DNA of 64,000 bases from Bryoerythrophyllum caledonicum (taxonomy: Eukaryota > Streptophyta > Bryopsida > Pottiales > Pottiaceae), in contig OZ020514.1 in the NCBI GenBank assembly GCA_963971425.1, positions 25,346,602-25,410,601 of the forward strand. The letters run 5' to 3'. Shown in pieces: positions 30,588 to 63,637 of this stretch (its first letter is position 1; every line of letters begins with the position of its first letter). Under the pieces are notes generated by a model, which searched no databases, was not told the DNA's origin, and saw only the letters and a program-made list of their open reading frames with translations. A program made the translations under genes and the position numbers.

Positions 30588-30619
30588 TAAGCATCAAATT
30601 CATGCGAGAAAAAAATCAA

Positions 30620-33773: not shown

Positions 33774-33784
33774 TTTATAGGCAA

Positions 33785-37770: not shown

Positions 37771-37778
37771 AGTTACAC

Positions 37779-37799
37779 TTTAGCTCGAGTCGAGCTAAA
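37779..37799. repeat. Gene D palindrome, upstream site
   Basis: Perfect 21-bp dyad around TTAGCTCGAGTCGAGCTAA, preceded by CAC. About 95 bp upstream of the likely ATG at 37892. Counterpart of E site 59063. Confidence 0.92.
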
Positions 37800-39340
37800 G
37801 GGAAACCTCTCCATCCTTGTTGGATGATCAATTTAGCAATCTAATATTTGTGTGCTCGGTCTGGTGTGTTAGCAGATCTGAGAGGGACAGGATGGTGACT
37901 CAGCTGCAGCACTTTTTCCAGCAAAAGGCCGTTGACATTGATGATGACGATGGAGACGACAACAACCACTTGGATTGCTGGGAGCTCAAGGACCCATCAA
38001 TGACATTGAAGTGGACGCTTCTATGGGCGACCTATAAAGATCATTTAGTGTTTGTTCAGACCTTCGCTAGTGCTATCGTCGATCCCCAGCACGTCGACTT
38101 CAAGACCAAAATTACTGATGAAATAACGATCACGTTAAGTTGTCGTGTGAGACAACCACTGAGCCCGTAGATCCGTATTTGTTTACTATTGTAGTGGACA
38201 ACAGTTCATCTCCCTTCTGTATCTAGGATTTAGTCGATTCTCTTAGGTCGTCCAAATTTGATGAAATAGTGACTCAGGTCGACCATGAAATCTCTCTAAA
38301 GAAATGGGAGACTAGTAGCGGTTAGCCGCTGAAAGCAAAGGCTGTAGCTAATAAACTCCGCGTCATTCTATCGAGAATGAATACATTTGCCGCTCTAGAG
38401 AAGGCCAAATTAATCGCGGGGAGGCGCCCAATAGAGATATCGATAGTTTCTGGGGCCGTGGCTGGTAGCCAGGATATGAGTCAAGCGTCGGTACCGATTA
38501 GAACACCAGGTGCAAGAACAAGTCGAAGCACCCTGCGCAACACGCTGTCTGCTTCCCCCATCAAGAAGCGCTCAGCTGCCAAGAAGCCAGAGATCTCTTC
38601 GAGAAAGAAGACGAAGCTCGTTTTAAAGGAGGAGTTGGCCAATTCGATGGCCTCTGCACTCTCAGAGCTCCCTAAGGCGCTCTGGTTTGGAGAGGCAATC
38701 GACTACAACAACGTCCAATAGATTTACCTAAAACTCTGGACGGAGTGTCAGAGCTGCTTCTTCCAAGGAGACAGAGGGATGAAGATCGAGCTTGACGTGA
38801 TGAGGCTGCATAATGCACCGCCAGAGTGGACGATCCGGGCATTCAAACCTCGGAGTATGGAGGAGTTGAAGCATTATTACCTCGAAATGCCCGACAAGAC
38901 GCAGAAGCAGACTCTCTATGTCATGCCAAAGCTCAATGCTATGCCGACGACTATTGAGGAGCTCAGCGACTGCGACTTCTACATCATCAACGGCCAGCAC
39001 AGCATTGCTGCATCAAAAGAGATGATCAACGGCAACGTCCCAGAGGTGATGAGAAGGCACTTCCGAACATGGCAGTGTTACATTGTCTTGACGTAGGATC
39101 CGGAGAAGCTGAGGAAGATTTCCGCGTATTATAATCGCGTGAATCACTTGGTCTAGTTCAAGCCGACGTGGGCAACCAATATCCTTGGCTCTCGGGCTTT
39201 ATGGATGCAAGCTGGGAGACCAATGTCGAAGCACTCCGCCATGGCCATTCGCGGGTCTCACAAGTCAGGTCGGAGAACATCGTTGGACATTGCCAATGAC
39301 AAGAGGTTTGAGGTAATTTATCTTAACCAAGGTCATGCAC

Positions 39341-39361
39341 TTTAGCTCGAGTCGAGCTAAA
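39341..39361. repeat. Gene D palindrome, intron 1 site 1
   Basis: Perfect dyad extended to CATGCACTTTAGCTCGA and complement (39334-39368). Inside intron 39313-39565. Confidence 0.92.
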
Positions 39362-39437
39362 ATGCATGTTTGCTCACTATCTATATAGTGTTGTATTTAG
39401 ATTAAAATCACTTTCATTGTCTACTTTGTGATTGCAG

Positions 39438-39458
39438 GTTAGCTTGACTCGAGCTAAC
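39438..39458. repeat. Gene D palindrome, intron 1 site 2
   Basis: GTTAGCTTGACTCGAGCTAA with symmetric CTGCAG-like flanks (GCAG/TTGCAG). One arm substitution. Confidence 0.88.
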
Positions 39459-40924
39459 TTGCAGTTGTTGGATCCTACTGGACATGAATATTTTTCTACT
39501 TTAGTTGTAAACTCAATCGACCCTGTTTATGTCCTGCGCTGCCGTTTGTTAACGCCGTTCATGAGTGCTTTGCAGTGATCAACGTTGCAAAGAGTGAGGC
39601 AGCGCTCAAGAAAGCCGGCAAGGCGAAGGAGCTCTCAATTACGAACGAGGTGAAGATCATCACCTCGACCGATGAGACCTTCAAGCTCTGGTTGGATGTC
39701 ATCTCTTTGGCGGCGCATGGCGTCCTCATCAACGTTGATTCGACATCGACGTCCTTGGCAAAGTTCAAGGACGCCAAGTCTTGGGTGCCTGAGAAGGATG
39801 GGGTTTTGACGCACGAGTTCTTCAAATTTTTCGGCAACATGATCGAGGCTGATCACGCAAAATTGTGTAAGCACATTCTCAATCGATCAGGGCCATCGCG
39901 GAAACTACCTTATCGTAAGGTGGTTGTGAAGCAGCCGCAATCTGTGCTAGAGGATTGCTACAACACCCGGGACTGGGTCGATCGAAGGAAGAAGAAAGAG
40001 GTCGCTCGGACGGAGCTTCAGCTGATCAGGCCGGAGCTGGCCTTCTTCAACAACTCTCGAGCGTACAATCGTTCCAACTGGCGGACGCTTAAGAAGAACT
40101 ACAATGTCAACAAGGCATCAAAGCGTGCCCTCCTGGATTGTGGTCCACCGGATTTGTACTACAAGGATTCAAGGCAGACACAGTTTTGCAACTGCAAATG
40201 TAAAGATCTCTCTCTGTATCCTAAGGAGTTCTTCAGAGTCTTCATCGATGTGCAGTCACGGTTCGTTCCACCTTAGGGAGCCCTGCACTTTCGTTCGTAC
40301 AAGGCGGCGACAAATTTGCTCGGGACGTGGCCTTCCGATTCCTGGAGCAACTTGGGCTGCAATGTGAAGCTCGGCATCATTGACTTCCGGAATGTCCCTG
40401 GTCTCTCTAGGAAGGCAACATCGTCGTTGGAGAAGCCCTTCTTCGACGAGTTCATGACTATGTTCGCATCGAAAGGGCAACCTCCCTTCAACGATCTTCC
40501 AGCCTAGCTCTTCATTTGCGGCGAGGAGCAGTCACACCTTCAAGTGACAGCGTTTGCTGAGGGCCCGTCAATGTACCATGCTTACGATGTACTGCAGTCA
40601 AAGTATCTTCCCTCCGAAAACGAGCGCTTAGGAGGATTCGCGCCGAAGAGCAGCAACGCTCTCGACCCTGTTCGCCTCCTCTTTCTCTTCAAGAAAGAAC
40701 TTAAGCAGATCCCGGCCGTGAAGAAGACCTACGTAGCTCTGGAGCATGTGTTGCACACCAAGCTGCGCAAGTACAACGAGCTGGCGTACTCGATGAACAT
40801 GAACGAGCTGAGGATGGAGTTCTTCATCAAGGTCCTGGAGTTGTTCTGCAAGAGGGGGGAGGCAGTTGTCCAGCTGTTTGGCACGAGGAAATTACTGATT
40901 GCGAGTGTGGTAAGTTTCCTGCAG

Positions 40925-41163
40925 TTTAGCTCGACTCGAGCTAAATTGTTGATACCCTCTCTGTTTGTGCATAGATTGTTTCAGAGAGGTCGTCTCTTAT
41001 GCTTTTGTAGCGTGGCACTTTAGCTCGGGTCGAGCTAAAGTGTCGGCTTATACTTATATGATTTTCTTGCAGTCATCAACCGCGTCGTTCCCTTTTAAGT
41101 TTAAATAGCTGAGTTTTCGTACCATTGTTCCTTTGTATTCACTTTAGCTCGATTCGAGCTAAA
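40925..41163. repeat. Gene D palindromes, three sites in intron 2
   Basis: Sites 40925-40945 (centre ACT), 41019-41039 (centre GGT) and 41143-41163 (centre ATT), all perfect or near-perfect TTTAGCTCG...CGAGCTAAA, in the 284-bp intron 40910-41193. Gene E has three sites in the homologous, same-phase intron. Confidence 0.93.
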
Positions 41164-42258
41164 GTGTAACTTGTTCATTACTTTTGTGTCCAGATGTTGG
41201 ATCAGGAGGCATTCTGCATATCGCACGACACCGATGAGCAGGACCTCCACGACACCGATGAGCAGGACCTCGACGACACCATGGAGGTCGCGTTGACGTT
41301 GGATCGGGCCGATTTTGATGTTGCTGCATATCATGTCAACGCGGAGATCTTCCCCGAGCTTGGAGAGGTCGTTGCTAAGGAGAAGGGGAAAACAATTGTT
41401 GACCTCGGTGATGAGGAGGAAGATGACAAACCGAGAGCTCAAGCACAGCCACTCCGGATGATGAGTCCCATGACGATTTCGGTACCACCACTCCGCCGGA
41501 GTTTCAGAGTGCCTCTCAATCTGAAGTAGGAGACACAATCATTTCCTCGCGGCAACGACAAAAACCTGGAGTTGGATTCTCTGGAGATTTCTGACAGGCC
41601 TTATTCAGCTCTCACCTTGGGCGGGTCATCCGCTCGGCCCGCTGCCGTGAAGACGAAAGTCGCTAGCGCGAGCGGCCGGTCTTCGTTGGCTACTGTGAGT
41701 AGTGCACATGACGACAACACATTGATCTCCCTCGAGAAGAAGCTCGAAGAGGAGGCCGCCCAGAGGAGGTTGATAGAGCAGCGGCTGGCGAAGCGTGACC
41801 TCGAGCTCAGGGATCTGCAGCGGAGGCGTGACGAAGAGATGAAGAGGGACCAAGACCAGAGGCATACCGACATGATGCTCATGATGCAGAGATTCATGAC
41901 GGCAACTTTGCCTCCTGTCGCCACGACACCCCCCGTAATTAATACTGCAATTCCCCAGCCTCCTCTCTCAGCGGAAGAAGGGACTGGGAGTCTGTCCCGC
42001 GGTGCGCTGATGCCGTCTCCGGCGGGTTCCGACCCCCCGTCTCCATGGGGGTTCAATCGCTACTTGTTCCCCCATCCCCGCCGACCCGCCCCTCTTCCCC
42101 TCTGAAGTCTCCCGCTCATGACGTATCTATCGCAGATGTCCCCAGCTCATTGTCAGGTTAGTGTAACGTAGTTGCGAGCGTAAAGAGGCAGAACATTTTG
42201 TAAATGTCCAATTCTGTACTCCAATATTTTTGTTAATATTACAGTGCTCAGCGAGCAC

Positions 42259-42279
42259 TTCAGCTCAACTCGAGCTAAA
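42259..42279. repeat. Gene D palindrome, intron 3 site
   Basis: TTCAGCTCAACTCGAGCTAA in intron 42157-42362. The element A counterpart is 7436-7456. Confidence 0.85.
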
Positions 42280-43576
42280 CTGCTTGACATCTGACGACTC
42301 TGACTTGTATCACTGTCCTATGTGCGCATCTGCTGATAGGTTGAAATGTTGAATTTTTCCAGATCTAAGTTTCGGTGATGACGCGATCGCTCATCCAGTC
42401 ACAGATGAGGTCGTCCACACTGCAGTCCCAGTCGTAAAAGAGGTCGTCCAAGCTTCGGCCGTGCTCGTAGACGAGATCAATCATGATTCTGCTGACCTAG
42501 AGCCACCTCTTCTTGTCTCTGAACCGTGCCCCCATATGGTTGTGGGGCACTCGGAACCCGTTGACACCATGCAAGGTTCGTTGGGATCGATGGGGGTCCG
42601 AGAGGAAATGCAACAAGACGATGAAGTTCTTGAGGTACTCTTCTTACATTTTTCACACTCCACTCTCCTCCCCTCATGACGCCTCTCCCCCGTTTGCCTC
42701 TTTCGTTCTACATTTTGTTGACCCGTTGTTGTTAATGAATCTTTAGTAATGTTGTTCGTTCTCTTGGCGATTCCGAACCAGGTCTACGAGGCATCAATAA
42801 GTGGTGCCAATAATCTAGAAGAAACACCTAGAGTCCTATCAGATTTCGAGGGCAGGTGGTTGAATGTTGTCCTGGACCTCAATGGGATTCTATGCACGTG
42901 TGAGCCTACCTGGCAGGCCAAAGGATCCAAGAACTCTCACTCCTCCATTCACTCGGCTATGCAGCCAGACGAAGTAGGCCCTAAAGAAGTCCGAGCGCAC
43001 CCTGGTTGTGCTGAATTCCTTACGAAGTTGTCTAAGATTGCCACCTTCACGATCTGGAGTTTGATGATGGAATCCACAACATGTCAGATCTGTAAATATC
43101 TTTTTCAACATAGTTCTTCGTACCCTCTCAGGATCTTTGGTCCGGAGAGTTGCGATAGGGTTCCTGGGCGTAGAGTCGGTAGCAAAACAATCTACATGAA
43201 AGAATATGGCACTCAGAAGGACATCTTCTTGAAGACCTTATCGAACCATCTCTTCAATAGGTTGGGTCGTGAGTATACTCCGGCGAATACGCTTGTCATT
43301 GACGACAGCCCGATTAAGCATATGCTCAATTTGCCGAAGAACGTCCTTCTTCTTCCATCATGGTCGCACAATCATGATGGCGCGAGAGATGATTCTGTAT
43401 TGCTAGAGGAATTGCTGCCATATCTCTCTGACCTTCATCTGTTTCCGGGTGGCCTAGCGCAATACCGAGCCGAACATCCCTCGGGCCGGGAGATGTTCTA
43501 TAATGATCAGAAGACTTGTGGTCAGTCTGCAAGTATCTGGAATGCAATCCAAGCGTCTCTGAATCTCCGCCCTTAA

Positions 43577-43956
43577 TGCCGTTGGAAACGCTTAGATGCT
43601 TATTACACTTTAGGTCGGATAGAGCTAAACTGTATCAATTGACTGAAGTTCTATTTGGTAAATTTTGTTGGGCCATTTTTTGTGTATATATTTTTTGATA
43701 AATGAAACCGAGATGTTTCACCACTTTGTTTTTTGTGGGGATTGGATACCTACTGCTGATGGAATTTCGTCTTGTTTTGAATGATTGGAGTATTCATCTA
43801 TTGTTTTTGAGGTATGTGAGTGTCACTTTGGTTGCAAATTCTATAGGACTGTGACTGTCGGGCTTCATTGGATTCCTTGTTGGGCCCAAGGAGTTCACCC
43901 TTTCCCTTCGGAGTAAAGGGCTTTTGTTGCACTCTGCTGCAACCGCGCAGTCAACC
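43577..43956. other. Gap between gene D and D2
   Basis: Holds a decayed palindrome (about 43602-43625, TTTAGGTCGGATAGAGCTAAA in two halves), otherwise AT-rich. Probably the terminator of D and promoter of D2. Confidence 0.45.
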
Positions 43957-44626
43957 ATGGATTATTCGACCATGGCAATGGACGACGGAGTTGTTGAAAG
44001 CCCTATTGCGCGGGAGCCAATTCATGAAAGGAACAACTCACCTTCGCCACAGTGGCCTCGTTCGGTTCCAGGGTCTCCGCGTCTAAATCCGGATAATTGT
44101 ACCACTCCATGTTATTGCACTATTGAGTCGTTCTTGCCTAGGCAATCTTGGTTTCTTGTTGAGCTACATTGCACTCATGTAGTTTTGGTTCATTTGAGCT
44201 TGTTTTTATTCGTTGGATGTTAAATGTGGTATGTGAATTTACCGTTCAGCATTTTAGCTCCATTCGACGTAAAGTGCACTAGGATGGATCTTAATGATAC
44301 AGTTTTCATGTGTGCCGTGTAGGATTTTTTGATCTAAAGTGTATTTGTTTGGATTGTATGTGGCGCCTATTGTGCAGGAACCATCTGGTAAATGTCTCTG
44401 CCCCCATATTCTCTCAGGAAATGCTGCTAGAAACCAATGCTCTCCTTCTGCTCCCACCCGCCGACACTCGCTGCCCAAATCAAACACTGACGAGGTGCGT
44501 AGGCGGGGTTTGCAGCGTCTTCTAGAGAGTCCATTAATGCAAGAGGATGGCGCAACATGGACTAGACAGCGTCAGAGGGCTTTTTTGAAGAGGCGTATAG
44601 AGGCTTATGGAGGAACTCCCTAGACC
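43957..44626 (+). CDS. Small gene D2: Ser/Pro-rich first exon, basic C-terminal exon
   Basis: The first exon begins MDYSTMAMDDGVV and runs to a GT near 44099. The last exon, from about 44378, ends at the stop after EAYGGTP (44624-44626). The C-terminal part is strongly basic with TDEVRRRGLQRLL and RQRQRAFLKRR. The phase of my proposed junction does not fit, so at least one border is wrong. The intron carries a palindrome (44252-44272). A likely homologue lies on the minus strand of element A (4911-5962) at the same distance from the element end. Unknown function. It is the last gene before the right terminal repeat, so an accessory DNA-binding factor is plausible. Confidence 0.45.
44252..44272. 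repeat. D2 intron palindrome, slightly decayed
   Basis: GCATTTTAGCTCCATTCGACG...AAAGTGC: recognisable dyad with two arm mismatches. A further remnant at about 44663-44685 follows the stop codon. Confidence 0.6.
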
Positions 44627-44935
44627 ATTCGATTAGTTCTAGGACGCTTAGATCTCTATTACACTTTAGGTCAAATAGAGCTAAATTGTATTGGTTGACA
44701 GAGTAAATGCTCGGGATAAATGAGTGTTGTGTGAGTTTTTATCATGAAGTTTTGAATAAAGCTTGGATTAATGGTATTTGCTTCTTTTACCGTTACCATT
44801 TTTTTGGACATTCGGCTAATTTGGTCCATCCATGGAATGAAATATAGTATTCTTGGTACATTGTCTTTATGCTTTGCACCTAGAAATATCTATATATATT
44901 GATACTTCAAAGATCATATATCTTCAAAGTCATGG

Positions 44936-44964
44936 AAATCTCCCAATATAACTAATATGGTGTT
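44936..44964 (-). repeat. Right terminal inverted repeat of B/D
   Basis: AAATCTCCCAATATAACTAA then TATGGTGTT. Followed by TAAA (44965-44968), matching 3442-3445. Confidence 0.85.
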
Positions 44965-45822
44965 TAAATATAGGGTGGTCGTTGTTAATAGCTGCGTGTA
45001 ATCTACAAAGAATTGGTACAACTATTCTAATATAAGAGCTTTACAAATGCCCGCTATCCGTCATGTATGGTGTCTCCCAAATGTTAGATAATGGACTATA
45101 GCCTTCCTGGGATTCTTGAATGGATCTAGATCTGCAACGACACATTTAGGCCCCATATAATGCCTTGTTCTAGCATTAAATGAGGCCTTTCTAGTAATGT
45201 GGAGAAACATAACATAGCGAGGCATTTGAGTCTATTTGCTGGCATAGAGAAAAAGAATATCTGATAAGATGTCTGGGGGCAATATCACTTGGGCCGCCTC
45301 CATGAGCCTATCTAGACGCATAGGGGACCAAATTCCAACATTGAAATACCGCAGTAATACTTCAATAACATATGCCGTGTCATCAAAGGAAGGTAGCTGC
45401 GCGGAGCGGGACTTGGCCGAGTCAACGACCCCGTTGGAGCAAAGAGGACGGCGGAGAGATATGATTATGACCTACAAATAGCAAGGCACGACCATTGAAT
45501 TAGAAATTGAACATGGGAATGAAGAGAAAATAAGGTGTGAGGTTGCCAAGTGAAAGGAAATCGACCGGAGATCTCCGGTTGCCGGTCCTAGACCGACGTT
45601 TCGTAGTCGAAAAGGTTAGGGGAATATTCAATAGTGTTCAAGGATAGTGAAGGGTGAAGTTTGGGGGCGAGACACTAACAATAACAATTCGAAGGAAGGA
45701 CCTCAACAAATTACGTTATTCACAACATTTATCTTCAAAATTGAAAGGTCAATATCCCACAAACATTCTTGAGTTGACATTTACAAAGCATAGAGTAATA
45801 AATTCTAGTTTATCTCAATGTT
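44965..45822. other. Region right of B/D, no gene seen
   Basis: A 70-codon frame (45269-45481) has no recognisable features. I looked here for a left terminal repeat of a further copy (AACACC preceded by ATAC) and did not find one. Confidence 0.5.
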
Positions 45823-46542
45823 CTAAGGCACCGGAATTATGCCCGCCACCACGGCGAGAGTCGTAGGGGAAGATTTGTCTACTGCTCCCTGGCCATGCTT
45901 CAGGGGATTCCGTCTAACATAGTCGAGAACATCCTCATTTGATGCTAGCAGTCCGGCGAGCCATGGGCAAAACGTGGAGACCAAGAAGTTGTCATTCAAA
46001 AGCCCAATCCAAGATGGCGGATGAACTACACTAAAGGGATCGTTAAGGATGTTCTTTAGTGGGGTATCGTCTACAAGCAAGACATCCTTGGGAGACTTGG
46101 GCATTGCCTTGGAATTATAAACTGTGAAGTCCTTCAAAAAATTTGGCTTCTTTGGATGGGATGGGAGCACAAACGATGTTTTATAGCAATCGGCCTGCGT
46201 CAGGACAGTGACGTCTTCCAAAATGGCAGCACCTTTCTTGCGCAACTCCTTAAAAATATCTGTGATATTTTTCTCCAACACACTGCTCTAGAATGAGACA
46301 GTAGCCTTCTTCCCGATGAAGTTAAGAAGTTCTGTGCAACGAGGCCTTACTTTGATGTCCCTCGGTTGTCCCACTTTGAATTCCCCCTTGTGCACAGGAA
46401 CTCCATTTAAGTCAAACAGGACATGATAAACCCGATGTGTTGTTACCTGATCCTTGTTTCTAGGCTCACGGACAATCCTAGTAAGCATCTTTGGACCTGA
46501 ACCCAAAATACGAGTACGTAGGCTAAGATGAGGAACTTGCAC
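45823..46542 (-). pseudogene. FCP1-like HAD domain remnant (F)
   Basis: Minus-strand frame with HVLFDLNGVPV (motif I), ATVSF-stop-SS (motif II) and VLLVDDTPLKN (motif III), about 240 codons. The stop at motif II (TAG near 46289) replaces Trp of the WSS seen in A and D, a TGG to TAG change. An upstream exon with KMLTRIVREPRNKDQ ends before 46447. It is more diverged than the FCP1 exons of A and D, and no palindrome was seen nearby. It may be the left half of the element whose transposase is C, since the two would then be divergent as in A and B/D. Confidence 0.6.
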
Positions 46543-46844
46543 AGCTTAGAAAAAGTGCAAATATACATACACAAGTGTTCCGCACTGACAATCCTGAAAT
46601 GCTCGGTGGAAGATTGAGCACTATAAAGACGATGGCACATAAGTATGAATGTACACATTAGATACCTGGGACAGTAGGTGGAGTATCTCTAGAGGTCTGA
46701 GCTACACTAGCGACTTTTGCATTCTGCGTGGGGTTTTTGTCACCGACATCCTTCGACTGTGCTGATCCTTCCAAAACCTGAATACCAATAATGAAGTAGT
46801 CAGAATATGGTCTACGTAGAGTGAACTGTCCCCACTCAAATGCT

Positions 46845-48190
46845 CAACAAAGATATCTAAATATTTCTCACCATTCTCTGGAGATCAATTTTTTGGTTCA
46901 CTTGGTAAAGCATTTGATTACAAATGGGGCGGCATTGAATACGCACATCCATACAATAAAGAAGAAGCCTAAAAAGCCTTACACTAGGATAGACTTGCAG
47001 CCAAACATAATCCAAGAAATGGAATGTGTCTTGCACTTCTAGAAGAAGACTGGTAGCAAAATCCTACCTACCATATGGGACCATATTCAGATTCTCACAT
47101 CATATTTTTATTCCCAGCAGATACCATAGCTTATTTTGAACCAACCATACCAAAAGAACTAAACAAAAAACCCTGAACAGAAAAATCCACCTTACAAATA
47201 ATATGTGTGCATCAACAGAACAACACAATAGGCACCCAAATAAATATAGAACAACTAAATCATTAACTAATACCCTAAACATAAAACAATTATATGCCAA
47301 TTTAGCCCCATCAACACCCTCATCCAACACAGTTAACCGCAACAAACAATGGTCCAAAGCCAAATATCAAAACCTATGTCAAACACCCATCGTTATCTCA
47401 ATACCACTCCCACCCTATAACACAAATCTATCTCTTAAATTTAATCCAAAATATAGCTATTACACTGATGGATCATTTAAAGAACCAGAAGATGTAAGCC
47501 CATGACATTGGCATAGAGAAAAAGTTGGCTTTAGCATATACAATGCACCAAAAGACATTAAAATAGCCAAACGACTCCAATGACTACAAAACATCATTAG
47601 AGCCGAAATGATGGCTGTCCATAAAACACTACGAATCCTAAATGCTAAATACCCAAATGAGCCCACATACATATTCACAGAGTGCATCAATGTTTTATAC
47701 CTTTTAGACACGCAAATTCAACATCCTACTCTGCACAATGGCCACCCCGATAAAACTATTTTAGCACCAATGGTGCAAATGCTACAAGCACGTACCCAAC
47801 CCATATCATAACACAAAGTAAGAGCTCATGTGAACATTGAAGGCAATAAAAGATACGACTTGGACAACAACTTAACAAAACTAGCTAGTAATTTTTCAAA
47901 TATTGAAAATGGACAGGAAATAGAAACACTGACAAGGAACTCTCCAATGAATTTTGGACAAACCCTCTTATAATAGACTTAGAGAAAACATGTATTATAA
48001 AATTTGGAACATGCCAGAATATGGAAAATGCACAAAAACAATCATTCTTTGGCCGAGAAGATCCCCCTCTATTACATGTCCCATTTGTAACTCCACTGAA
48101 CCAAACATATGGCTACATGTATTATTCAAATGTCAACAACTACACATCTACGCACTGATTGTCAAAAGACATGACAAAGTAATATGAAAA
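46845..48190 (+). mobile_element. LINE fragment: RNase H domain and C-terminal zinc knuckle
   Basis: The frame from about 46845 reads SPFSGDQFFGSLGKAFDYKW, then a linker. From about 47455 an RNase H domain follows: YYTDGSFKEP, RAEMMAVHKTL, ECINVLYLL and VRAHVNIEGN, the D, E, D-like residues of an RNase H. It ends with CPICNSTEPNIWLHVLFKC (CCHC-like) and HIYALIVKRHDK. Reverse transcriptase is absent, and stops TGA near 47503 and 47579, TAA near 47809 and frameshifts break it. The layout matches RNase H-carrying non-LTR elements of streptophytes and algae. Confidence 0.7.
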
Positions 48191-48951
48191 ATCAGAGAAC
48201 TACTTGTATTCTTGTAGTTATCGTTTTGGTCGGATTCAAAATAAACCCTAAGCACCATATCAATATAGGTGGATTTGTTCGCAGGGAAATACTGTTCATA
48301 TGAATGCATCATGTTATTGTCACGATTGATTATACACCTGCTTTCTAACTTCACTTAACAATTATAATCACTCAATTAATCTCTTGCATCACTCCATACC
48401 TAAACACTCTCCAATTATCCATTCTTCATGATCTCATAATCATGTCAATTTCTCTCTTCTTCATTGTACTTACAGTAAATTATATTCAATTATTCGTGAT
48501 CAACTTCCGTAATCACATTCAACAACCAATTGTGTCACATAGATTACAATCTCTTCACGTATATCATTCAACTATCTAACTTTTCTATCTCCACAATTCT
48601 CATACAATGTTCATAAACTTCACTATCAATCACACAATCACACTTCTTTAATTCCAATTTTATTAATACTTCATACTAATCACAATTCTACACAAAGAAA
48701 TAGAAAAATCCAAAGAAAAACAAGAGGTAGCACCAAGCTTGCCTCGGCTTACGACTATCACAGTCTGGCCTCAAATTCATCTTCCTCAAAGTCTTTATCC
48801 AAAAACGAGATTCTAATTTCTAACTACCAGGTTCCAAGAGTCACATGCTTCTTCACCTCTTAACTAACTTCTCATGTAACTTTTCAATCTCACTACTGAA
48901 CTACAAAACTACCATGCAAACTGCCGAGTTTAACCATTTCTAAACCGTATG
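48191..48951. other. AT-rich stretch, no gene seen
   Basis: Pyrimidine-rich with CTTCTCTTCATTG-like text. It lies 3' of the gypsy element on its strand and might contain LTR sequence, but no second copy was found to prove it. Confidence 0.35.
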
Positions 48952-49896: not shown

Positions 49897-50225
49897 TGTG
49901 TACTACAACAAGTTTACGCACATAACTATTCTCTCGAACACAACTCCAATTGACACAAACACACAATGCTCACAAGAGTCCCACTCCTTACTTCTACGAT
50001 GGATCTGTCTTCTTCTTCCTCACGATACGTCATAATGAATTGACCTACTAAATTAAACTTCAATAGCTTGCTTTACTCTAACTGTCTCAATTCTCATTAT
50101 TACCACCTCTTTCTCTCACTTCACACTTACTAATCTACCATCATGACTAAACTGCCTATCTCTCCGTTAAGATAAAACCCGTTCCGGGTTTTTATTTTTA
50201 TTTTTGATTTAGTTCCAATTTCTCA

Positions 50226-53143: not shown

Positions 53144-53617
53144 CTATGTTTCCCCATGATATTGAACTGGATACATCTGAATCACAATTTTATCTATACC
53201 GGCCCCAATTGTCAATGTACCTCGACCCCAATCATTACGAGCTTTTGCTTGATGTAACCATGGTCTTTCCAGCAAAATTGGGTAGGACAACATTGAACTT
53301 TGCACTCGGAAGACAATGTAATCAATTTTGTAAGTAATGCTTGTAATAACTGTATCAATACTCCATAGTGTACCCATAGGTTTAACTCGGCTGGAATCTG
53401 CCATTCGTAACATTACCATTGTGGGCAACAATTGGATCAAACCCAATTCGTCCATTGTATCAACATTCATGAGATTTACACTAGATCCACCATCAACTTG
53501 TACACCTAGAACTAGCACACCATCAATAGAAACATCAATGGTTGGAGCTCCTAGATCAGGATTCAAACTGATTTCTCTAATTTCTTTATTACGGGATCTG
53601 CGTCTAATTAACGACAA
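53144..53617 (-). pseudogene. Gypsy retropepsin-like protease region
   Basis: GVQVDGGSSVNLMNVDTM corresponds to the retropepsin active-site loop, with D-G-G where D-S/T-G is usual, followed by LLERPWLHQAKA. The linker to reverse transcriptase (52580-53143) is open in pieces (52772-53089). Confidence 0.65.
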
Positions 53618-54399
53618 GTGTAATGAAGTATGACAATCCGGTGCAATTGCGTTTCATTGAAATTGTAGGTTGAATTGTACTTAAATCCTTTAAATTATCA
53701 TACGGTTCCGGATTGGTTGTAATATCCAATGCCCATTTCTTCTTTCCAATTTTGGATCCCATTTCTAGTAAATTGGTCTTTCCAATTTTTGGAACTGGTT
53801 CTTTACCTAGTTTCGGCGAAACCCGTAACATAGGTTCTTCGAGAGCATAAGATTGGTTTGTCAACTAGGACAATATTGGTTCTTTGGGAATTGGTGAGCG
53901 ACCCAATATAGTAGTTGGATTGATGCGGGAGATCATCCCCGTTTCCGGAATTGGTCCCCCACTCAAAATTGGTAATGGCTCGTTGTTTCCCTAAATTGGT
54001 ACTGGTTGCTCTTCAGTTATTGGTTTTTCCAATATTGCAACTCATTCGTTATTCTTCTGCTGATTCCTTGTAAGTACAGCTTAGACCACTTCCACTCTAT
54101 GCACTGGTGATTCTTGGATACTCTTAGGATTCTCTTCCACAATTTGTACAGTAGATGGCATCTGTTGATCGCTGTTATTGGGATTAAATGGAGCATTACA
54201 TCAGTAATATTGGTGACCGGACTGCTTACAATTTCCGCTGACTAGAACATAATATTCCACAAATTTTGGATTTGGACAATCACTAGTGTATTGTCCTAAT
54301 TGCCAACATAAAAAACAACGAACTAACTTCCTTCGTGAGCCACTTAGCAAATTGGGCGTCTCAACGAGTATATATCGTCTAGGTTGATTCCGTGTAGCT

Positions 54400-55620
54400 T
54401 CAGTATAGGATCTTGGTTGACCAGTCGTGATAAATGTGTATTGGGCAGTTGATTTGGCATAACTTGGAAATTCCCTTGTTGGTTATTGCCACAATTTGGC
54501 ATATTGGCCCCATAATTCGGGTTAAAATTTGGATTTTGAAAATTTCCACCACCTCTATTTTGTCAATTGGAAAGATTGCCTTTCCAACCACCCATATTTC
54601 CGGTTTGCACTTGATTAATGTCCCACTGAGTTGGTTGAATCATTGTCTAAGTGCCAAACTGTGGTTGACCTTGTAAATACCAATATTTAGCAGTAGGATG
54701 TTTTCCACCGCAACACTTGCATTGTACTCCTGTTTGTCGTGGTGACGGACATTCTGTATCAAAATGACCTTGCCCCTTATAGTTATTACACCATACATTG
54801 GGTCTCGAATTAGTAAGTTTCCGACGTTTTTCTTTATCTTTGGCCATATTAACCGCCAATTCCTCCATTTTCTTCGTAAGATTTAATAACAATGTCTCAT
54901 TCAAATTTGTTCCCGCGGATGAATCTGGTAATTCATGCTGGGGACAAGTCAATGCTGAAGCATACAGTACCACTGCTCTGGAAGGTACTAATTGCAACGG
55001 TGTCGCATTGATTACTCCTTGTAAATTGGCACCTCCTTGAGCTGCATTAACAGCCCATGGATAACTTCCCATTAACATATTTCCTCTTGCGGATTCACAG
55101 AATAGGGAATCATCGTGGGGCCTACAGTCAGCAATTGATCGTAATGGCATTCTTCCCATATCTTTGCACGTTCTAAAGATGCTCCTACTGTAACTGCTTG
55201 AGCCTCCTTAACAAACATTTTTAATTCCTATGGATTTAAACCATTCATTATTATTGACAATATAAATGATTCAGGCATTTGATTATTCAACCATTTGCGA
55301 AGTATATCCGCAACTCTACTATAATATGGTTGCACTAGTTCGCCCACGAACATCTTGCTTGTCATCAAACTTTCTCGAACCCGAGTTTCAAAACCAATTG
55401 GCCTAAAATGTGTTAGAAAAGCGTTTTGCAAAGCTACCCAATTCGGAAATTGACCTACTGTTTGACGATTATACCATTCAAATGCCGTGTCTTTCAACGT
55501 CGCTGGAAACCATCTCAGCCATATAACTTCAGTTCTTCCATTATTGGCTACACACGCTGTCAAAAATTGGGACAAATGATGATCCAGATCAGAACTTGGC
55601 CATCCACTAAATGTTGGCAA
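54400..55620 (-). pseudogene. Gypsy gag with CCHC zinc knuckle
   Basis: 55228-55620 has a retrotransposon gag core: PTFSGWPSSDLDHHLSQF, WYNRQTVGQFPNWVALQNAF and RPIGFE. 54647-55159 has WCNNYKGQGHFDTECPS and QCKCCGGKHPTAKYW, CCHC-type knuckles. The N terminus is cut off at 55635. Confidence 0.8.
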
Positions 55621-55634
55621 TGGCGCAACAGTGT

Positions 55635-58089
55635 AGGTGGGAGCTCCCGTTCGTACAACAATTCCTCAAGGAATACTCGTCCAACACTGTCCAGGAATGT
55701 TGAATTCCTCGTGACCCCTCATTCCATTAATGCAGTTGCGAGCAATAGTTGTTGCAGTCAAAACTGTGTTCAACACTACCCTAGAGATAAAATAAAAGCC
55801 CTCCGGATGCGCTTGTACAGTGAGACCATTGTGCAGTTCAGAAATCATATCAAACTCGACGTTCATAGACAGTTTCATAGAAACTCTGCGAATAAGAAGG
55901 TTGTGACTCTACAGGGTGTGGATGTTTGTGCCCATGCCTGGATGAAAATCATGGATGTGAGTTTGAGTACTTTCTATCGGAATGCGAAGGACGCTGCTGC
56001 TGGTCATGCGGCTCAACACCATGGGAATACTGGTTTGCGTAAGCCTAGAGGTCATACGGTTGTGGCTACTGCCGCTCTTGGAGCTATCCTTGATAGACAT
56101 GCAGACCACATGCCTCACAAGTCTCGTGTTCTCCCATCTGGCAAGAAGGCTGTGGCAAAGGTCCTTCCTGCAAGTTTTAAGTGGAAGTAGCAGATATCGC
56201 ATCTTGATAATCATCTCGCTGATTGTGGATTGCCGCCAATCTCAACCTCAAGCTTGAATAAGATTCGGCGAGTGAGCTTCCCTGAGTACTATGCCAAGAA
56301 AGGTGGAGACAACTTTGCCCGTTGTTCTACGTGTGACAAATACCAGGATTAGAAGAAGCTTACTCAACCTGGAACACAAGCATCACTGCTATGGCAGAAG
56401 AAAATGCAGGTTCACATCGATTCTGCTTTTGCACATCGGGACTTGTACTATCTGAACCGATTTTGATCAAAGTCGTCGCCCCAGGAGGTTCTAACCATCA
56501 TGCATGATAAGATGGATCACTCAAAGACCGCCTCCCTAGTTTTTTCACATAAAACAAAGCACTTAGATGGGCTTATGAAGTTGCCTCTTGCAGTCACAGG
56601 CATGCTTGCCCATGGTCATGTGGACCAGCGTTACGCCCATTACGGCCTTGATCTATACTCCCATGATGCGAAGTACACGGTCGGGTCGTTCGCAAAACTA
56701 TTACGTGACCTGGAGGCGCCTCCGAAGTCATCGTCCCGGCAACTCTTTCCAAAATCTAGTTCTCATCCATTGTATGCGGTGGTATTACGGGGTTCAGAGA
56801 TGTGTTTGGATCCATTAGGGCCGATTCCAGATATCCCAGTTCCAGGGAGGCCTTTGCCTCCAATATTGAACGCGCAAATGGACAATGTTGTTGGTGATAA
56901 CAAAAATAGATTTGTTTTTTGTTTTTGGTCTCTCCTTGTTGCAAACCGCATCTTTTGCAAGGTATATGTTAATTTCATGCTAGCTGGTCATACACATGAT
57001 GATATAGATGCATTATTTGGTCGTTGGAGTATGACACTGAGGAAGGAGAGTTTTCCAACCATTCCTTTCTTCATGAGGTTGTTCATGAAAAATGAGAGTC
57101 TTCCCACAATCCCGCATCTTATTGAAGAGGTTCCTGACTTTAAGAAGTTCATTGGGGATATGATTGCGGATGGTGATGAAGCTTTACAGGGTCATACAAA
57201 GGCTCATCAGTTCAAGTTTTATGTGGATTGTAGTGGTTGTCCGGTAATGAAGTATAAAATCCTTTGTCATGATGAGGATTGGCTTCCTAAGGGAGGAGAA
57301 GGTAGTGGCATCAAATTGTGGAAGGAGGATTCTGAAGGAAGGTCTTTATGGCCTCGCGGAGAACTTGATGCATTGAAGCCTTCTACGATGCGGCATCTCC
57401 ATGAGGTGGTGAAGGGACTTTCAGGATTCATCGATCACTGGGAGCAATCATCGCGGGAGTCTATTGAAGCCCGTTCGCGTTTTGAGCCGCTATCGTACTA
57501 TTGGCGCAATGTTAGAGATGCTCTGACACTTCCAATGGATACGTGGATATCATTGGAAGACGGCTTTTGGCCAACGACGCGAATTGCCCATGCCATTGAA
57601 GATGAGTTCTCAGCGGAGGGTGAGGTTCGCGAGGAGTACTGTGAAGATGAGCATTTTGTTGGCGAGAGACGCGATCGTCCACCTCCTTCTTTTAGAGTTG
57701 GTCGTGATCTTTTTTCTGGCTACTTTGTTGCATTGCAGCCTTGTGATGGAGACGAGCGCCCATTTTGGATTGCTCTAGCAATTTCAGATTCTAACTCTAA
57801 CATGGATATGCCATACACCGTCCGTATCCAATTCTTCTGCCCTATATTGCGCAATCGGGATGTTCTGAAGTTCTATAAAGTTTGGTATACTGATTGCAAC
57901 CTTTGTTGGACAATTGAAAAGGGGATAGCCATAACATGGGAGAGTACCGATTCAATCTTGACAGCATGGAAACCTAGGTCTTCAAAGAGGGATGGAGGTC
58001 ATATACAAGATTCAACTACAAAAATTCCGAAGGGGCAAGTAGCGATTATTAAGGCCTCCTTGGAAGCACTTGTCAGGTCCGAATCGTAA
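55635..58089 (+). pseudogene. DDE transposase copy C, 5' truncated
   Basis: Frame equivalent to B from residue about 120 (LGGSSRSYNN) to the stop at 58087-58089 (ALVRSES). In-frame stops: TAG 56188 after FKWK and TGA near 56464 after NRF, both shared with B, plus TAG near 56350 where B has CAG (Gln). No frameshift. MHDKMDH (56500), MDNVVGDNKNRF and GHTHDDIDALF are intact. It retains the uninterrupted CCTAGGTCTTCAAAG that marks the empty site of element A in copy B. The 5' end abuts the gypsy gag at 55634. Confidence 0.85.
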
Positions 58090-59028
58090 TAGACTTTCCT
58101 TTTCCTAGATTTTGGATTATGATGCGTAATACTTCATGTGTATGGTTAGATCCATTGGTGCTGAGATTACAAATAATATTTGTATTTGATTACCCTCTGT
58201 ATGACTATATGTGATGCCAATGATTGCTATGAAATATTCTCTCCATTGTTTTTGCGCATCGGTGATAATTTGCAGTATGTTTATTTTCTTTTTTAAATAA
58301 CAATGTGGTAAATTGCTTCTAATCTTGAAACCAATAATCCCAGTAATTGCCTTCATGGTGAATGATAGAAAGTAAATGCTGGTTCACACTTTTGCTCCAC
58401 TAGAGCTAAAGTGTGAGCAAATCTTCTTGTTTAGTTCACTGCACTTAGTAATGGTGCGCACTTTAGGTCAAGTGGAGCTAAAGTGTGTGGAATTGCTTTT
58501 TTGAGTATATTGCACCTCTAAGTGATGGGGACACTTTAGTTCGAAGAGAGCTAATGTGTGTGCAACTTTTTATCCACTTCTGAACACCATCATTTGAAAC
58601 TCGTTACATATTTTTTTAGCCAATGTGTATTCCACAAGTTAAACTAAAATTATTTTAAATCAAAAAAAGGCTCATCAAAATATGTTTAGCTAGTACTCTT
58701 ACAAGTGGATATTTGGCCGTCATTTAGCTCACTTTTAGCTAACTTGGAGCATGGGGTTAATCCAGGTTAGTAGGATCGAGTGTGAATATTTAGCTATTCA
58801 TATTCAATGAACATATGTGGTATAAAAGAAGTGTCGACTAATGTGTTCTTCTTTTCAATATTATAGTTAGATTCGTAATATAATATTATCTGTAGTATTT
58901 ATTTTTCTAGGGATTTTTGTGGTGAACATTACCTCTCAATTTAATGGAAACTCGTATCCCTCCATATTGTAGAGTTTAGATGTGCACTTTAGCTCTTACG
59001 ATCTACATGTGTTAATTTGGGAGTCTCT
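58090..59028 (+). other. 3' subterminal region of copy C with three palindromes
   Basis: Inverted near-copy of 3475-4427. Palindromes at 58390-58410, 58462-58482 and 58535-58555 are imperfect TTTAGCTC-type. No gene. Confidence 0.75.
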
Positions 59029-59057
59029 AAATCTCCCAATATAACGAATATGGTGTT
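59029..59057 (-). repeat. Terminal inverted repeat at the end of copy C
   Basis: AAATCTCCCAATATAACGAA then TATGGTGTT. Next bases are ATAC, the expected target duplication. The matching left end was not found in this window. Confidence 0.8.
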
Positions 59058-59062
59058 ATACC

Positions 59063-59081
59063 TATCCTCGACTCGAGGATA
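59063..59081. repeat. Gene E palindrome, upstream site (dialect TATCCTCGA)
   Basis: Perfect 19-bp dyad TATCCTCGACTCGAGGATA, 62 bp upstream of the ATG at 59143. Counterpart of D site 37779. Confidence 0.93.
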
Positions 59082-60531
59082 ATGATACTTGTAATCATCT
59101 AACTCGTTTTCCGAATGTCTCCACGCAAATAACCTCATCACAATGGATCCCGTCGACGACTATGACTACTCGGGGTCAACATACTTCATCACGGAGTTCG
59201 AAAATCCCGTCGCCCTGTTGCCTTTCATCAATGATGTCGTCGAGAACTACGGGAAGCTGTGGTCGTTCAACCTCGACATCATTGGCTGGTCCATCTTCAG
59301 GTCGGAAAAGAACGTTCTTTTTTCATTCAAATTGAAAGAGGAAATTCCATATGTTCCATTGAACAGAACTGAAAGAGTGACGTTTCTGGAGCAGCGTTGA
59401 CACAATTACATCGTTCTCGGTATCTAGGCCGTGAACAATGTTGGGGAGGACCTTCCGCACTTTCACTCGATTGCTGTAAAAGTGGGTGACACTTTTGGGC
59501 AATTCGACTTCAACGAATTGCTTGAGAGTGCCGACAAAAATGGCCAGGGGGTGTTGCGTCAAGCGTTTGAAAAATAAGGTCCGTGGTCAAACGACGACGC
59601 TGAGAAGGTAAACAAGAGACTGGTACGTATTCACCAACTTCTGACGATTTTTGAGGCCCGTCAGGTTCCGGTAGCTCCACCTCCACGACGTCGGCCCAAG
59701 CAGAAGAGCGCAACAGCCGGCGACGTTACTACAGAAGCGGTAGATGCGACTCGAAGCACAAGTCGTGGTGCTCCACGGAGGGCTTCTGAGATGGCCTTCA
59801 GTTTAGGCGAACCCTCCAAACGGAAGAAGACTGCTATGGCCGGTGAGAGATCGACCTCGACTGTTACGAGGGCTGCGACTCCGATAAAATTGCTCAATGA
59901 CCCCCAAGTAGACTTCGAGAAGATAACGGAGTCCCAAAGATTGTTTTGGGAGGAGTGCAATTCTTGCTTTCCGTTCGAGTCCACATTCACCGTGAACATC
60001 GAACAGTGTGTGCCCGCCAAAGCCTAGTTCGTGATTTGTGGGATGGAGGAGGGCATTGTCCGGAACTCCATGGACTTTGTGGTCCAACTTGGAGAGGTAA
60101 ACCAGCGGTAGAAGATTTGCATGTGCCCGATCGATAACACTGGAGAATCGATAACGCGGAAGCCCAATCCCTGGGACGATATCAAGGGTGGGAAGTTCAT
60201 GCTAATCAACGGACAATACAACGTCGAAGCTTCCAGAAGACTTCAACGTGTTGAACAATGCGGGGAGCAGTGCAAACGGGATCTGTGCCATTGGGATGCA
60301 TATGTTGTGTGGACAACGGATCCTCTGAAGTTGCAGAGGATTTCAAAGTTCTACAACGACACCAACTACCTTGATCATGCCCAACCTACGTGGGGGAACC
60401 AAATTTCAAGCTACATGGGAATCTGGCTCAACTCTGGTAGATCTAGCTACCAACATGACGAGGGCGACTTGTGAATGAATGGTGCCAACTTCAACCAGGA
60501 GAAGTACTTGGTAAGGTTCCAGATCTTTAAG

Positions 60532-60627
60532 TATCCTTGAGTCGAGGATAATCTTCCATGCCTTTTTGTGTATCCGCTAGTTGATATGTAATATACTCCT
60601 TGTTAAAGTATTCTCGAGCCAAGGACA
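60532..60627. repeat. Gene E palindromes, two sites in intron 1
   Basis: 60532-60550 reads TATCCTTGAGTCGAGGATA (one arm change). 60610-60627 reads TATTCTCGAGCCAAGGA (decayed). Both in intron 60511-60716, where gene D also has two. Confidence 0.85.
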
Positions 60628-62034
60628 CTCTTCCATGCGGTATCCATGATTAATTTCTCTAATGTTGTCTTACTGTGTTGCAATTGTTTGCGAAGTTGAT
60701 TGTAACGTGCTTCTAGAATATCGACCCCACGAGGGAAGGAAAGCAAGTGAACAAGTAATCGGATCTTACTAATGAGATTAAGGTCATCACTCTTCCGGAT
60801 GACATTTTCAACCTCTGGGAAGAATTCCTTGATTAGCACAGCGGCGGAGACATTGTAAACCTCGACACAACTTGTCTACATAAGGACGCTAGAGGTTTCA
60901 AGCCTTCGCCAATCCACCATGAGTTTTTTAAGAGGTTGGGTCATCTGTCCGACCAGGATTTAAGAGATTTGTTCACTTACCTGGTTGATAGTGATCGCGG
61001 ACAAGGTTATCCAAAGGTCACGCTTCGTAGGACTGGCGTGGTACATGAATCGTGCTACCACTACAAGGAGTGGGCTGATCGAAGGAAAAAGAAGCGCGTC
61101 GTCATGCAGGAGCTGGTGCACATCGACCCATCTTTATTGCTTCTACTTCCGAATGGGTCGATTGACGACGCAATGTGGAAGGAGTGGAAGGAGAAACACC
61201 ATGTGTCTTCTGCTACTTACAACATGCTCCTCTGTCAACCCGACAAGGAGTTCTGGTCGATGAGGTTGACCAATGCGGGGAAGCTGAAACGAGCATCACA
61301 TCTGCTAGAGAAGTTCCCGAACGTTCTTCCGTTCTTCAAAAAGTTTCTACATTTGAAAAACTTGTTCACCCCGCACGATGGATATGTGAAACTTCGCGAG
61401 TTTAATGCAGAGAATCTAGAGTTTGGTGATTACTTCACCGCTCCAGATGATTCTAAGGAGTTTACACTAGGACTTCTCGACCTCCGTGAGGTACCCAGTT
61501 GGTTGTCCAAGGACGACTCCCTGGACGAACCATACTTTGCAGACTTCATGAATGCCATGAAGTTGCAAAAAAGTACCCTAAACATGAGCACTCCTCATGT
61601 TTGGATCTAGATCACCTCCTCTGCCAATTGTGCGTTGCAAGCTGCAAAGTTTGCCGAGAAGCGGATGGCCCGGTATTCGCCCATCTCCTTGGTGTACCTT
61701 TTGTCAGCCAATGAGCGCCTGTATTATGGGACGTCCAAGGCTAAGGTTACGGATGTCAACCCACTCTTCTTAGTGAAGAAGAGTCATCCCGAGGCTTCTG
61801 TGCTCATTAACAAAGTGAGGCTGTTCTACTCTGCACCAGATACATTCTTCTACAAAGAGAAGAATAAGTATCTAGATGTAGAATTCTCCGTCCACGGCTC
61901 GGAATTACGGATGGAGTTTTACTTGGAGCTACTCCGAGACTTCTGCAACCAAAAGGTGAGGGTTTTTGGAGTTTTCTATGGTTCCAAATTTATGCTGGCC
62001 AATCTGGTATGCTCTCATTTGTATCAATGTAGTG

Positions 62035-62165
62035 TATCCTCGAGTTGAGGATATACCATACGGTATGCTGTCGTCTGTATCATTGTAGTCTATCCTCGAG
62101 TCGAGGATAGACAATTATGTTTGTTGTCATTAGTTTCAGAGTGGTTTATCCTAAAGTCGAGGATA
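62035..62165. repeat. Gene E palindromes, three sites in intron 2
   Basis: 62035-62053, 62091-62109 (perfect TATCCTCGAGTCGAGGATA) and 62147-62165, spaced 56 bp, in intron 62007-62238. The intron interrupts the same codon position as D intron 2 (after KFMLANL / KLLIASV). Confidence 0.93.
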
Positions 62166-63618
62166 GACAATTGATTATATTTCAGATTTTTTTTTCCATT
62201 ATCCAGTTTCTAATCTCGATTTCTCCTGTCTCATGCAGATGTTTGGAATGTCTTTCTATGGACTCATTGATGAATCCTTCCGGCTTCGGTACAAGAATCA
62301 AATGCAGCGCATTTTTGAGTTGGACATGAATGATTTCATCCACAAAGACTATGTCTACCTTCAGCCTTTGCCTTCCAACGTTGGAGGTGCATCTACATCG
62401 ACGTCTCAGGCTGCACCTCTGGAACGCGTTCCAAGGGCCCGAATATTGCCAAGGAGGGCTGAACGTGTTCGCCAACGTGCTCAATGCTCTAGTGCTGGAT
62501 CGCGGCATGACTCCCTCAAGACCTAGAGGGCATCTGGTAGAGGTGCACCGACTCAACAACCTCCTCAGGATGACTCTCCCTTGCTCGTCAATCCATATGG
62601 GAGCAATGACGGCGTCAATCTTTTGATCCTCAGCTTGGATGATAGTGAGCCGTCATATCGATCTCGTAGTAGATCGCCTCCTCGCCGACCTCATGTGCTC
62701 GTGCACGAAGACTTTCCGGTGAACAACGGAGCCGTTCATATGGAAGTTCAAGGTGGTCCTGACATATCTCCTTTGGTTGGTTATGCCCCTGCAACAGATG
62801 TTCCCGTCGCTCATACCGCCCCGGCAACAGATGTTCCCGTCGCTGGTAACGCTCCTGCAGCAGAAGTTCCCATCGCTGGTACCGTTGTGAGATATGTCCC
62901 TATCATCCTGCTCTCCAACTCCAGTGATGATGAAGGTGGAGATCTTCCCAGTACATCTCAGAATGTGGGGGCACCCACCGTGATGACAATGATGGTTACG
63001 ATGGATGTGGAGGTCGCTTCCCTACCTGATGCCGCCTCCGCAAATGCAGCTGGGCATGCTCCGGCCCCTCGGCCGCCTGTGGAGGGCGCTTCTTTACCTG
63101 ATGCCGCCTTCGCAGATGTAGATGGGCATGCTCAAGCCCTAGGGCTGCCTCTGAAGTATGAACTCGGTGCTAACTTTTATCAGCACCAACGCAACCAACG
63201 CCTTTAGGAGCGGCAAGAGAGGCAGACAATCTTGGCACAGTTAGAGGCTACCCAAAAGAGACAGGCTGAGATGGAATTTGCTTTCGAGAAGCAGCGGGTG
63301 GAGTCTGAGCAAGAGAAGGAGAGGATGGCGGCGTCAATCCGCGCGGAGATCCAAGCGCAGATGTTGGTGGAACTCAACCGACGTCTTGCTGAGCAAGCTC
63401 ACATTTCGGTTCCAGTCCCCACTGCTCCATCCGAATCCGTCGTGTCTCATCCCTTCACATATCCTCGCACCAAGGATAACACTGTGGTTGTGCGTCAATC
63501 TCTTTCAACTGGATTGCAACCTTGCTTTTCATCTCACCCAGTTGGAGAAGCCGCCATTTTGGTTGAGGCGCCAGTTCTGCTTGGGGATATCCCCTCTTCA
63601 TCGTCCGGGCCTTCTGAG

Positions 63619-63637
63619 TATCCTCGACCCGAGGATA
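63619..63637. repeat. Gene E palindrome inside coding exon 3
   Basis: Perfect dyad TATCCTCGACCCGAGGATA, translated in frame as YPRPED. D has its equivalent site in intron 3. Confidence 0.9.

Follow-up and report, generated by a model that had tools for sequence, protein, structure and literature searches.

Giant DNA transposons of Bryoerythrophyllum caledonicum carry clade-specific palindromes, candidate recognition sites for an element-encoded protein with predicted ParB and methyltransferase folds

The window analysed here, a 64,000-nucleotide stretch of the Bryoerythrophyllum caledonicum genome (contig OZ020514.1, hereafter C1, positions 25346602-25410601, in an assembly of 437,360,962 bases and 894 contigs), contains two paralogous DGQHR genes, D and E, accompanied by short palindromes that are spelled differently from one to the other. 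We found that these palindromes belong to DNA transposons of 18-20 kb with terminal inverted repeats (TIRs) of the form AACACC...GGTGTT and 4-bp target-site duplications (TSDs), whose features in the window are collected in Table 1. D- and A-type elements are bounded by an inverted repeat of about 29 bp, AACACCATATTC..., and two divergent genes, DGQHR-FCP1 and DUF7869 (PF25273), are present in D, in D-type copies elsewhere and in an E-type element. Element A interrupts the DUF7869 gene of D, and its target is found intact in a copy at 57975; E represents a third lineage beside D and A. The D gene itself is disrupted by in-frame TAGs and an apparent frameshift in exon 1. E shows a single upstream site because its promoter is abutted at 59057 by the end of a further D-type element, which we interpret as having inserted into E. 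PF25273 is matched by the copy at 56500, which is near-identical to the DUF7869 gene of D, and DUF7869 is the putative transposase of these elements. In all three elements with both ends seen the TSD is 4 bp long (TAAA, ACCT and TGAA), as it is in the Sola1 superfamily; the Pfam scan matched PF25273 only, with no Sola profile compared separately.

Table 1. Transposons, genes and palindrome sites in the window (positions are those of the 64,000-nucleotide stretch).
Feature	Position	Strand	Remark
Element D (TTTAG dialect)	3446..44964		41.5 kb TIR to TIR, including nested A and an insertion of ~3.9 kb
TSD of D	3442-3445 and 44965-44968		TAAA
TIR of D, DUF7869 side	3446..3474	+
TIR of D, FCP1 side	44936..44964	-
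Element A (mainly TTCAG)	4542..22669		18.1 kb, TSD ACCT
TIR of A, FCP1 side	4542..4570	+
TIR of A, DUF7869 side	22641..22669	-
TIR ending a further D-type element (DUF7869 part 55634-58089)	59029..59057	-	abuts E promoter
D gene	37892..43576	+	exons for predicted ParB-fold (DGQHR), methyltransferase-fold and FCP1-like domains
DUF7869 gene of D (candidate transposase)	22668..25745	-	divergent from DGQHR gene; cut by A
E gene (TATCC lineage)	59143..63897	+	FCP1-like exon within the next 1.1 kb past the window (L058)
FCP1-like exon of A	6157..7029	-	61.6% identity to FCP1 exon of L037
DUF7869 gene of A	19157..21766	+	two reading frames; second frame PF25273, E 2e-35
D palindrome, upstream	37779..37799
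D palindrome, intron 1	39341..39361
D palindrome, intron 1	39438..39458		outer base altered on both sides (GTTAGC..GCTAAC); variant also in other D-type copies
D palindrome, intron 2	40925..40945
D palindrome, intron 2	41019..41039
D palindrome, intron 2	41143..41163
D palindrome, intron 3	42259..42279		hybrid TTCAG..CTAAA, same place in other D-type copies
D palindrome-like site after FCP1 exon	43609..43629		3 mismatches
D promoter array	32800..33571		TTTAG-type sites, mostly ~52 bp apart
TTTAG array before DUF7869 gene of D	25563..26021		mostly ~47 bp apart
A palindrome, TTCAG	7436..7456		within a 39-bp near-palindrome
A array before DUF7869 fragment	9044..9302		8 TTCAG or hybrid sites, 34-bp period
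Inverted copy of A array	18793-19017		7 sites
A sites past DUF7869 gene	22089..22358		22089 exact TTTAG; 22211 and 22338 TTCAG-type
E palindrome, upstream	59063..59081
E palindrome, intron 1	60532..60550
E palindrome, intron 1	60609..60627		4 mismatches
E palindromes, intron 2	62035..62165		62035, 62091 and 62147, one per unit of a 56-bp tandem repeat
E palindromes, exon 3	63460..63637		63460 (3 mismatches) and 63619

The palindromes come in three spellings, TTTAG, TATCC and TTCAG, that have the inner CTCGANTCGAG in common and vary in the outer 4-5 bp alone (TTTAG and TTCAG by one base per arm); the original prediction, made from the letters of this stretch alone, had taken both arms to be wholly rewritten, which is not the case. 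It had also assigned seven sites in the same arrangement to each of the two genes, and 13 of these 14 sites begin where it placed them, the remaining one, given as 60610, starting at 60609 with 4 mismatches. The sets of seven are present and incomplete: D has a further site at 43609 and the array at 32800-33571, E has one at 63460, a fuller E-type element carries a promoter array of 7-8 sites, and palindromes also precede the DUF7869 genes. Judging from the spacing in other copies, the promoter array of D was probably parted from 37779 by the insertion of about 3.9 kb. That chance would not produce such sites was borne out, as we counted 8 exact TTTAG sites in the window (one of them, 22089, in A) versus none in 100 shuffles, 7 TATCC sites at up to 3 mismatches versus none in the control, and 50 palindromes with a GC fraction of at least 0.35 versus 5, 3, 3 and 1 in four second-order Markov sequences. 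The third spelling ascribed to element A, TTCAG, is indeed found at 7436 but not throughout, with the exact TTTAG at 22089 and several hybrid sites in the arrays.

Genome-wide, exact spellings number 3707 for TTTAG, 914 for TATCC and 674 for TTCAG, while reversed control patterns gave none. In the D-type copies that we fetched, a palindrome scan placed 5-12 sites ahead of the DGQHR gene and 3-8 ahead of DUF7869, with a frequent spacing of about 52 bp and about 47 bp, respectively. Where the introns were covered, intron 1 contained 1-2 sites, intron 2 contained 1-3 and intron 3 a single one. Related ends (4 and 5 mismatches over 22 bp) and the TSD TGAA mark the E-type element at C1:16261003-16281241, which follows the same site plan with 22 sites counted with the TATCC pattern, the third group lying in exon 3; an unbiased palindrome scan gave no CTCGANTCGAG site of another spelling in this element. 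TATCC was likewise found in 4/4 additional copies (on C1, C2 and C11). A TTCAG element (L061, L062), with exons 1 and 2 about 11 kb apart, has 12 listed sites, of which one has a TTTAG left arm and two an inner one-arm mismatch, and in two regions (L043-044 and L056-057) DGQHR-FCP1 and DUF7869 stand in a different relative order, which we read as neighbouring or broken elements. Two contigs that GTDB assigns to the cyanobacterium AVDCRST_MAG81 (L037 and L038) encode an intron-bearing DGQHR gene with TTCAG or ATCAG sites upstream and in its introns, the sites of L037 being TTCAG as in A; a eukaryotic-type transposon gene with introns in these contigs is probably contamination. Among viral contigs the core pattern matched 36 DNA stretches and the full TTYAG pattern none, and no protein relative was detected in 60 candidate stretches. 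A second class of palindromes, CTCTANTAGAG-like with the same outer arms, recurs at corresponding places midway along D-type elements and close to their DUF7869-side end, both in L043-L057 and in the window at 3948-4113, 29603-29692 and 58390-58555.

Where a predicted protein continues past exon 2 into intron 2, or past exon 1 into intron 1, it spells the palindrome in translation (SSxRAK for TTTAG, QLxSS for TTCAG and SSxRG for TATCC), and with these predictions and the genomic copies 28 of 47 rows of an exon-2 tree and 19 of 41 rows of an exon-1 tree could be labelled. The exon-2 tree comprises 35 of 52 relatives and 12 copies from the window or the same genome, its 19 unlabelled rows being left out of the count, and the exon-1 tree, for which the program warned of long branches meeting, comprises 33 of 68 relatives (those of at least 330 residues) and 8 copies, with 22 rows unlabelled; labels taken from protein tails admit slightly degenerate forms (P0010, P0014, P0033). 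The sole relative with a named organism outside bacterial bins is P0041 of Physcomitrium patens, at 40% identity. Spelling follows the protein phylogeny: both trees need two changes for the three spelling states, the minimum possible, whereas shuffled labels needed 9.3 (exon-2) and 7.1 (exon-1) changes on average and were as low in 0 of 200 shuffles, a test that near-copies inflate. Because two changes suffice in both trees, the dialects are old and clade-wide, as illustrated by P0048, which is 38% identical to E and keeps the E spelling. Thus, the dialects first described as element-specific do distinguish lineages, but they are a property of deep clades, with two changes explaining all labelled rows. 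Tails of the distant exon-1 relatives P0086, P0088 and P0089 hint at a candidate fourth spelling, TTAGATCGANTCGATCTAA (TTAGATC).

Within elements, the comparison of arm spelling that the original prediction had proposed came out mostly in its favour, as spelling is nearly uniform per element and differs between lineages, a pattern seen among further copies in this genome as well as in two contigs of different origin. In the listed part of C1, which holds 93 of the 5295 exact sites, 18 of 19 site clusters were pure, with TTTAG and TTCAG mixing slightly. The proposal that a factor co-varies with the element gains support, since spelling tracks the protein tree and the gene encodes predicted ParB and DNA-methyltransferase folds. 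Such a factor could also be a host DNA-binding protein, with element lineages adapted to different host factors, and the same spellings in contigs and predicted proteins from other sources would be compatible with a conserved host factor; we nevertheless hold this to be very unlikely, as spelling follows the element's own protein tree and differently spelled lineages coexist in one genome.

Uniformity does not extend to every single site, as many are imperfect: 201 D-type sites show 188 one-arm changes, 29 paired changes and 19 unpaired two-arm changes. The two-arm total of 48 exceeds the 16.2 expected by chance, an excess explained by inherited site classes, since two positions diagnostic of these classes account for 25 of the 29 paired changes. 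With mostly one-arm changes and paired changes at the class positions, there is no sign of site-by-site correction, and active correction from arm to arm is unsupported. The same holds for conversion replacing all sites within an element, the other mechanism that had been offered, as the GTTAGC..GCTAAC variant of intron 1 persists in D-type copies. A/T positions deviate from the majority in 2.8% of cases inside sites versus 10.1% outside, a difference favoured by our choosing sites on the majority sequence, which biases toward conserved ones.

These counts also bear on the idea that the sites have no reader and are simply inherited, being homogenised by tandem duplication, gene conversion or template switching between arms. 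The 56-bp tandem repeat that carries the intron 2 sites of E, the 34-bp period of the A arrays and the surplus of two-arm changes would all suit it, but unrelated places such as promoters and introns share a spelling while their flanks differ, the sites differ less than the flanks, and paired changes concentrate at inherited positions amid a majority of one-arm changes, so that we give it hardly any credence. Least credible, and unlikely in the extreme, is that the sites work as hairpins in the RNA of introns and leaders. The arms could base-pair and leave an AnU loop, and in introns 1 and 2 the sense strand favours C at the centre base (C 23, G 12, T 4); however, arrays lie upstream of genes, the centre base of promoter arrays is little strand-biased (G 30, C 24, A 8), and the A and T flanking the centre are retained together in 188 of the 201 D-type sites although these would be loop positions.

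Structure models built on 24 and 26 aligned sequences offer a candidate reader in the product of the DGQHR gene. Exon 1 is predicted to encode a ParB-fold domain (residues 271-400, confidence 79-93 as 10-residue means) with the ParB/sulfiredoxin (CTPase) fold of the ParB N-terminal domain, KorB being among the fold matches; its conserved motif reads NGQHS, not DGQHR. Residues 239-458 of exon 2 are predicted to adopt the fold of a beta-class DNA methyltransferase. The signatures of this class are the catalytic motif IV, (D/N/S)PP(Y/F/W), for example DPPY, and the S-adenosylmethionine motif FxGxG, and neither was found: in an alignment with 26 of the 52 exon-2 relatives found, the motif IV position reads D[FL]x in 26/26 sequences and the cofactor motif position [FY]xGxK in 25/25 sequences covering it. 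Since DPPY and FxGxG are replaced, catalysis is not expected. The last exon is FCP1-like, matching PF03031 (NIF) above the curated cut-off in D (E 3.9e-14) and A (E 7.9e-17), and the DxDx motif that is catalytic in FCP1/SCP-type phosphatases is absent, reading DLNG with the second Asp replaced in 11/11 matches (from a motif search allowing D or N that matched 10 of the 12 sequences scanned, L063 and L066 not among them).

Pseudo-enzymes of this kind often act as binding modules, and beta-class DNA methyltransferases read short sites, often palindromes; CcrM reads GANTC, which is the centre of CTCGANTCGAG and hence of all three dialects. The DGQHR-gene protein is therefore the first candidate reader, and on balance we favour the view that the palindromes are recognition sites for a transposon-made protein, most likely the DGQHR-FCP1 gene product. 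This protein would bind duplex CTCGANTCGAG with the lineage-specific outer bases, presumably as a dimer, at the arrays in both promoters and at the intron sites of its own element; binding may keep the two genes expressed or unsilenced and so control or protect the element, and target spelling and protein would diverge jointly, giving rise to clade-specific dialects. A more elaborate scheme, which we put forward tentatively and regard as possible rather than probable, is an address system in which the dead methyltransferase and a ParB clamp would read the palindromes of the clade, load at the arrays in promoters and introns, spread along its own element and block silencing, with the FCP1-like domain acting on transcription. 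If true, protein and address would diverge together, so that several systems could coexist in one genome without cross-talk. With thousands of candidate sites, three spellings and matching proteins in one genome, self-recognition and its evolution become directly testable, and self-recognition here would parallel VANC anti-silencing as an independent case.

The other gene of the element could supply the reader instead, with DUF7869, the candidate transposase, recognising the palindromes and the promoter arrays helping to assemble a transposition complex; TNPA-type proteins read subterminal repeats of CACTA elements. Arrays also lie before the DUF7869 gene, the CTCTANTAGAG class is located near the DUF7869-side end and mid-element in D-type elements, and DUF7869 diverges with dialect, its identity to the E-type copy being 54% for the C part (D-type query) and 44% for the N part (query from A). 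We still consider this distinctly unlikely, given that the main class is found in promoters and introns and not at element ends, that a search allowing up to 2 mismatches found none in the stretches at the ends of the E-type element (L063 and L064), and that transposase sites would hardly be expected in the introns of the other gene. Alternatively, the DGQHR-gene protein could act as an ordinary autoregulator, repressing or activating the two genes in the manner of KorB or DndB, and play no part in epigenetic silencing. The position of the arrays just upstream of both genes, the fold match to KorB and the description of DndB as a ParB-like transcriptional repressor of its own operon, in the part of PMC12704722 available, all speak for it, but conserved intron sites and the many sites per element would appear to exceed the needs of simple promoter control, and we judge it unlikely.

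Several observations weigh against recognition by the DGQHR-FCP1 protein. As the dialect is common to both genes of an element, it gives no indication of which protein reads the palindromes, and with only two dialect changes, one of them a single base per arm, the covariation rests on few events. One of the 19 clusters in the listed part of C1 is mixed, and so is element A, with TTCAG, one exact TTTAG and several hybrid array sites. The ParB match has a Foldseek E of 3e-3, with none under 1e-3, the family libraries assign no name to either the ParB-fold or the methyltransferase-fold part, and many copies contain in-frame stops. Finally, the stretches read around two divergent open copies, L067 (C1:29000-32300) and L068 (C9:29300-32200), contain no such palindrome, and the protein family is therefore not always accompanied by sites. 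L067 and L068 are open copies of the methyltransferase-fold exon, each sitting about 31 kb into a large contig, and are perhaps domesticated.

Among known systems, the ParB-methyltransferase accessory genes of algal transposons appear, from the available text of PMC12477816, to be the closest relatives in kind: the 21.5-kb Sola1-1_Ec32 of Ectocarpus and its green and red algal relatives are described there as giant transposons with such genes, whose products are suggested to bind and modify their own transposon. The elements described here are likewise giant TIR transposons in which a gene on the strand opposite the transposase, if DUF7869 is indeed the transposase, encodes predicted ParB and N4C/N6A methyltransferase domains. 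Unlike in the algal elements, motifs IV and I are lost, an FCP1-like domain and a DUF7869 partner are present, and the candidate targets are palindromes spelled by clade; the available text of PMC12477816 names no binding motif for the algal proteins, and its main text does not contain the string 'palindrom'. The phage ParB-fold proteins fused to an N6_N4 methyltransferase, often on mobile elements (PMC12704722, in the part available), similarly join a ParB/CTPase fold to a PF01555-type methyltransferase, whereas the protein described here resides in a plant-type nuclear genome, is degenerate and is joined to an FCP1-like domain. Its exon 2 shares the predicted beta-class N6-adenine/N4-cytosine methyltransferase fold with CcrM, M.BceJIV and M1.HpyAVI but differs from CcrM-type enzymes in the replaced DPPY and FxGxG.

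A parallel of another kind is VANC of the Arabidopsis VANDAL transposons, an element-encoded anti-silencing protein that binds its own element (PMC5735166; PMC10398659, as far as the available text goes). In both cases short, lineage-specific motifs lie in introns or other non-coding parts of the element, and related VANDAL elements, too, use different motifs, often in tandem repeats (PMC5735166). The motifs of VANC (YAGTATTAY, AGTTGTCC) lack palindromic symmetry, and the protein contains DUF1985 and DUF287 (PMC5735166), neither of which was found in Pfam scans of the exon 1, exon 2 and FCP1-exon products, whereas the protein here has predicted ParB and methyltransferase folds. In the open-licence literature searched we found no account of the palindrome code, the lost methyltransferase motifs or the FCP1 fusion, and no paper on DUF7869.

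In-frame stops in decaying copies amount to 30 TAG, 3 TAA and 9 TGA, counted over 12 exon-2 and 9 exon-1 stretches (the E exon-2 stretch begins after an uncounted TAA). To judge from the letters alone, the TAG excess fits decay of CAG to TAG under CHG methylation and suggests that these copies were formerly silenced. Within exon 2 of the D-type copies, C is replaced by T at CG and CHG sites roughly twice as often as at CHH sites, a CHG excess that the non-coding parts do not share. The frames would also be open if TAG were recoded as glutamine, but some exons of the same genome are stop-free and others carry TAA or TGA, so that decay with a TAG excess is the simpler explanation.

Element A further holds a large inverted duplication (7517-11908 and 16182-20544, 96-99% identical) that includes the 5' part of DUF7869 and its promoter array, as well as GGGGCCCC-bounded near-palindromes of another kind at 11731-11761, 16248-16276 and 16334-16364. 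Outside D, a further FCP1-like remnant lies on the minus strand at 45781-46545.

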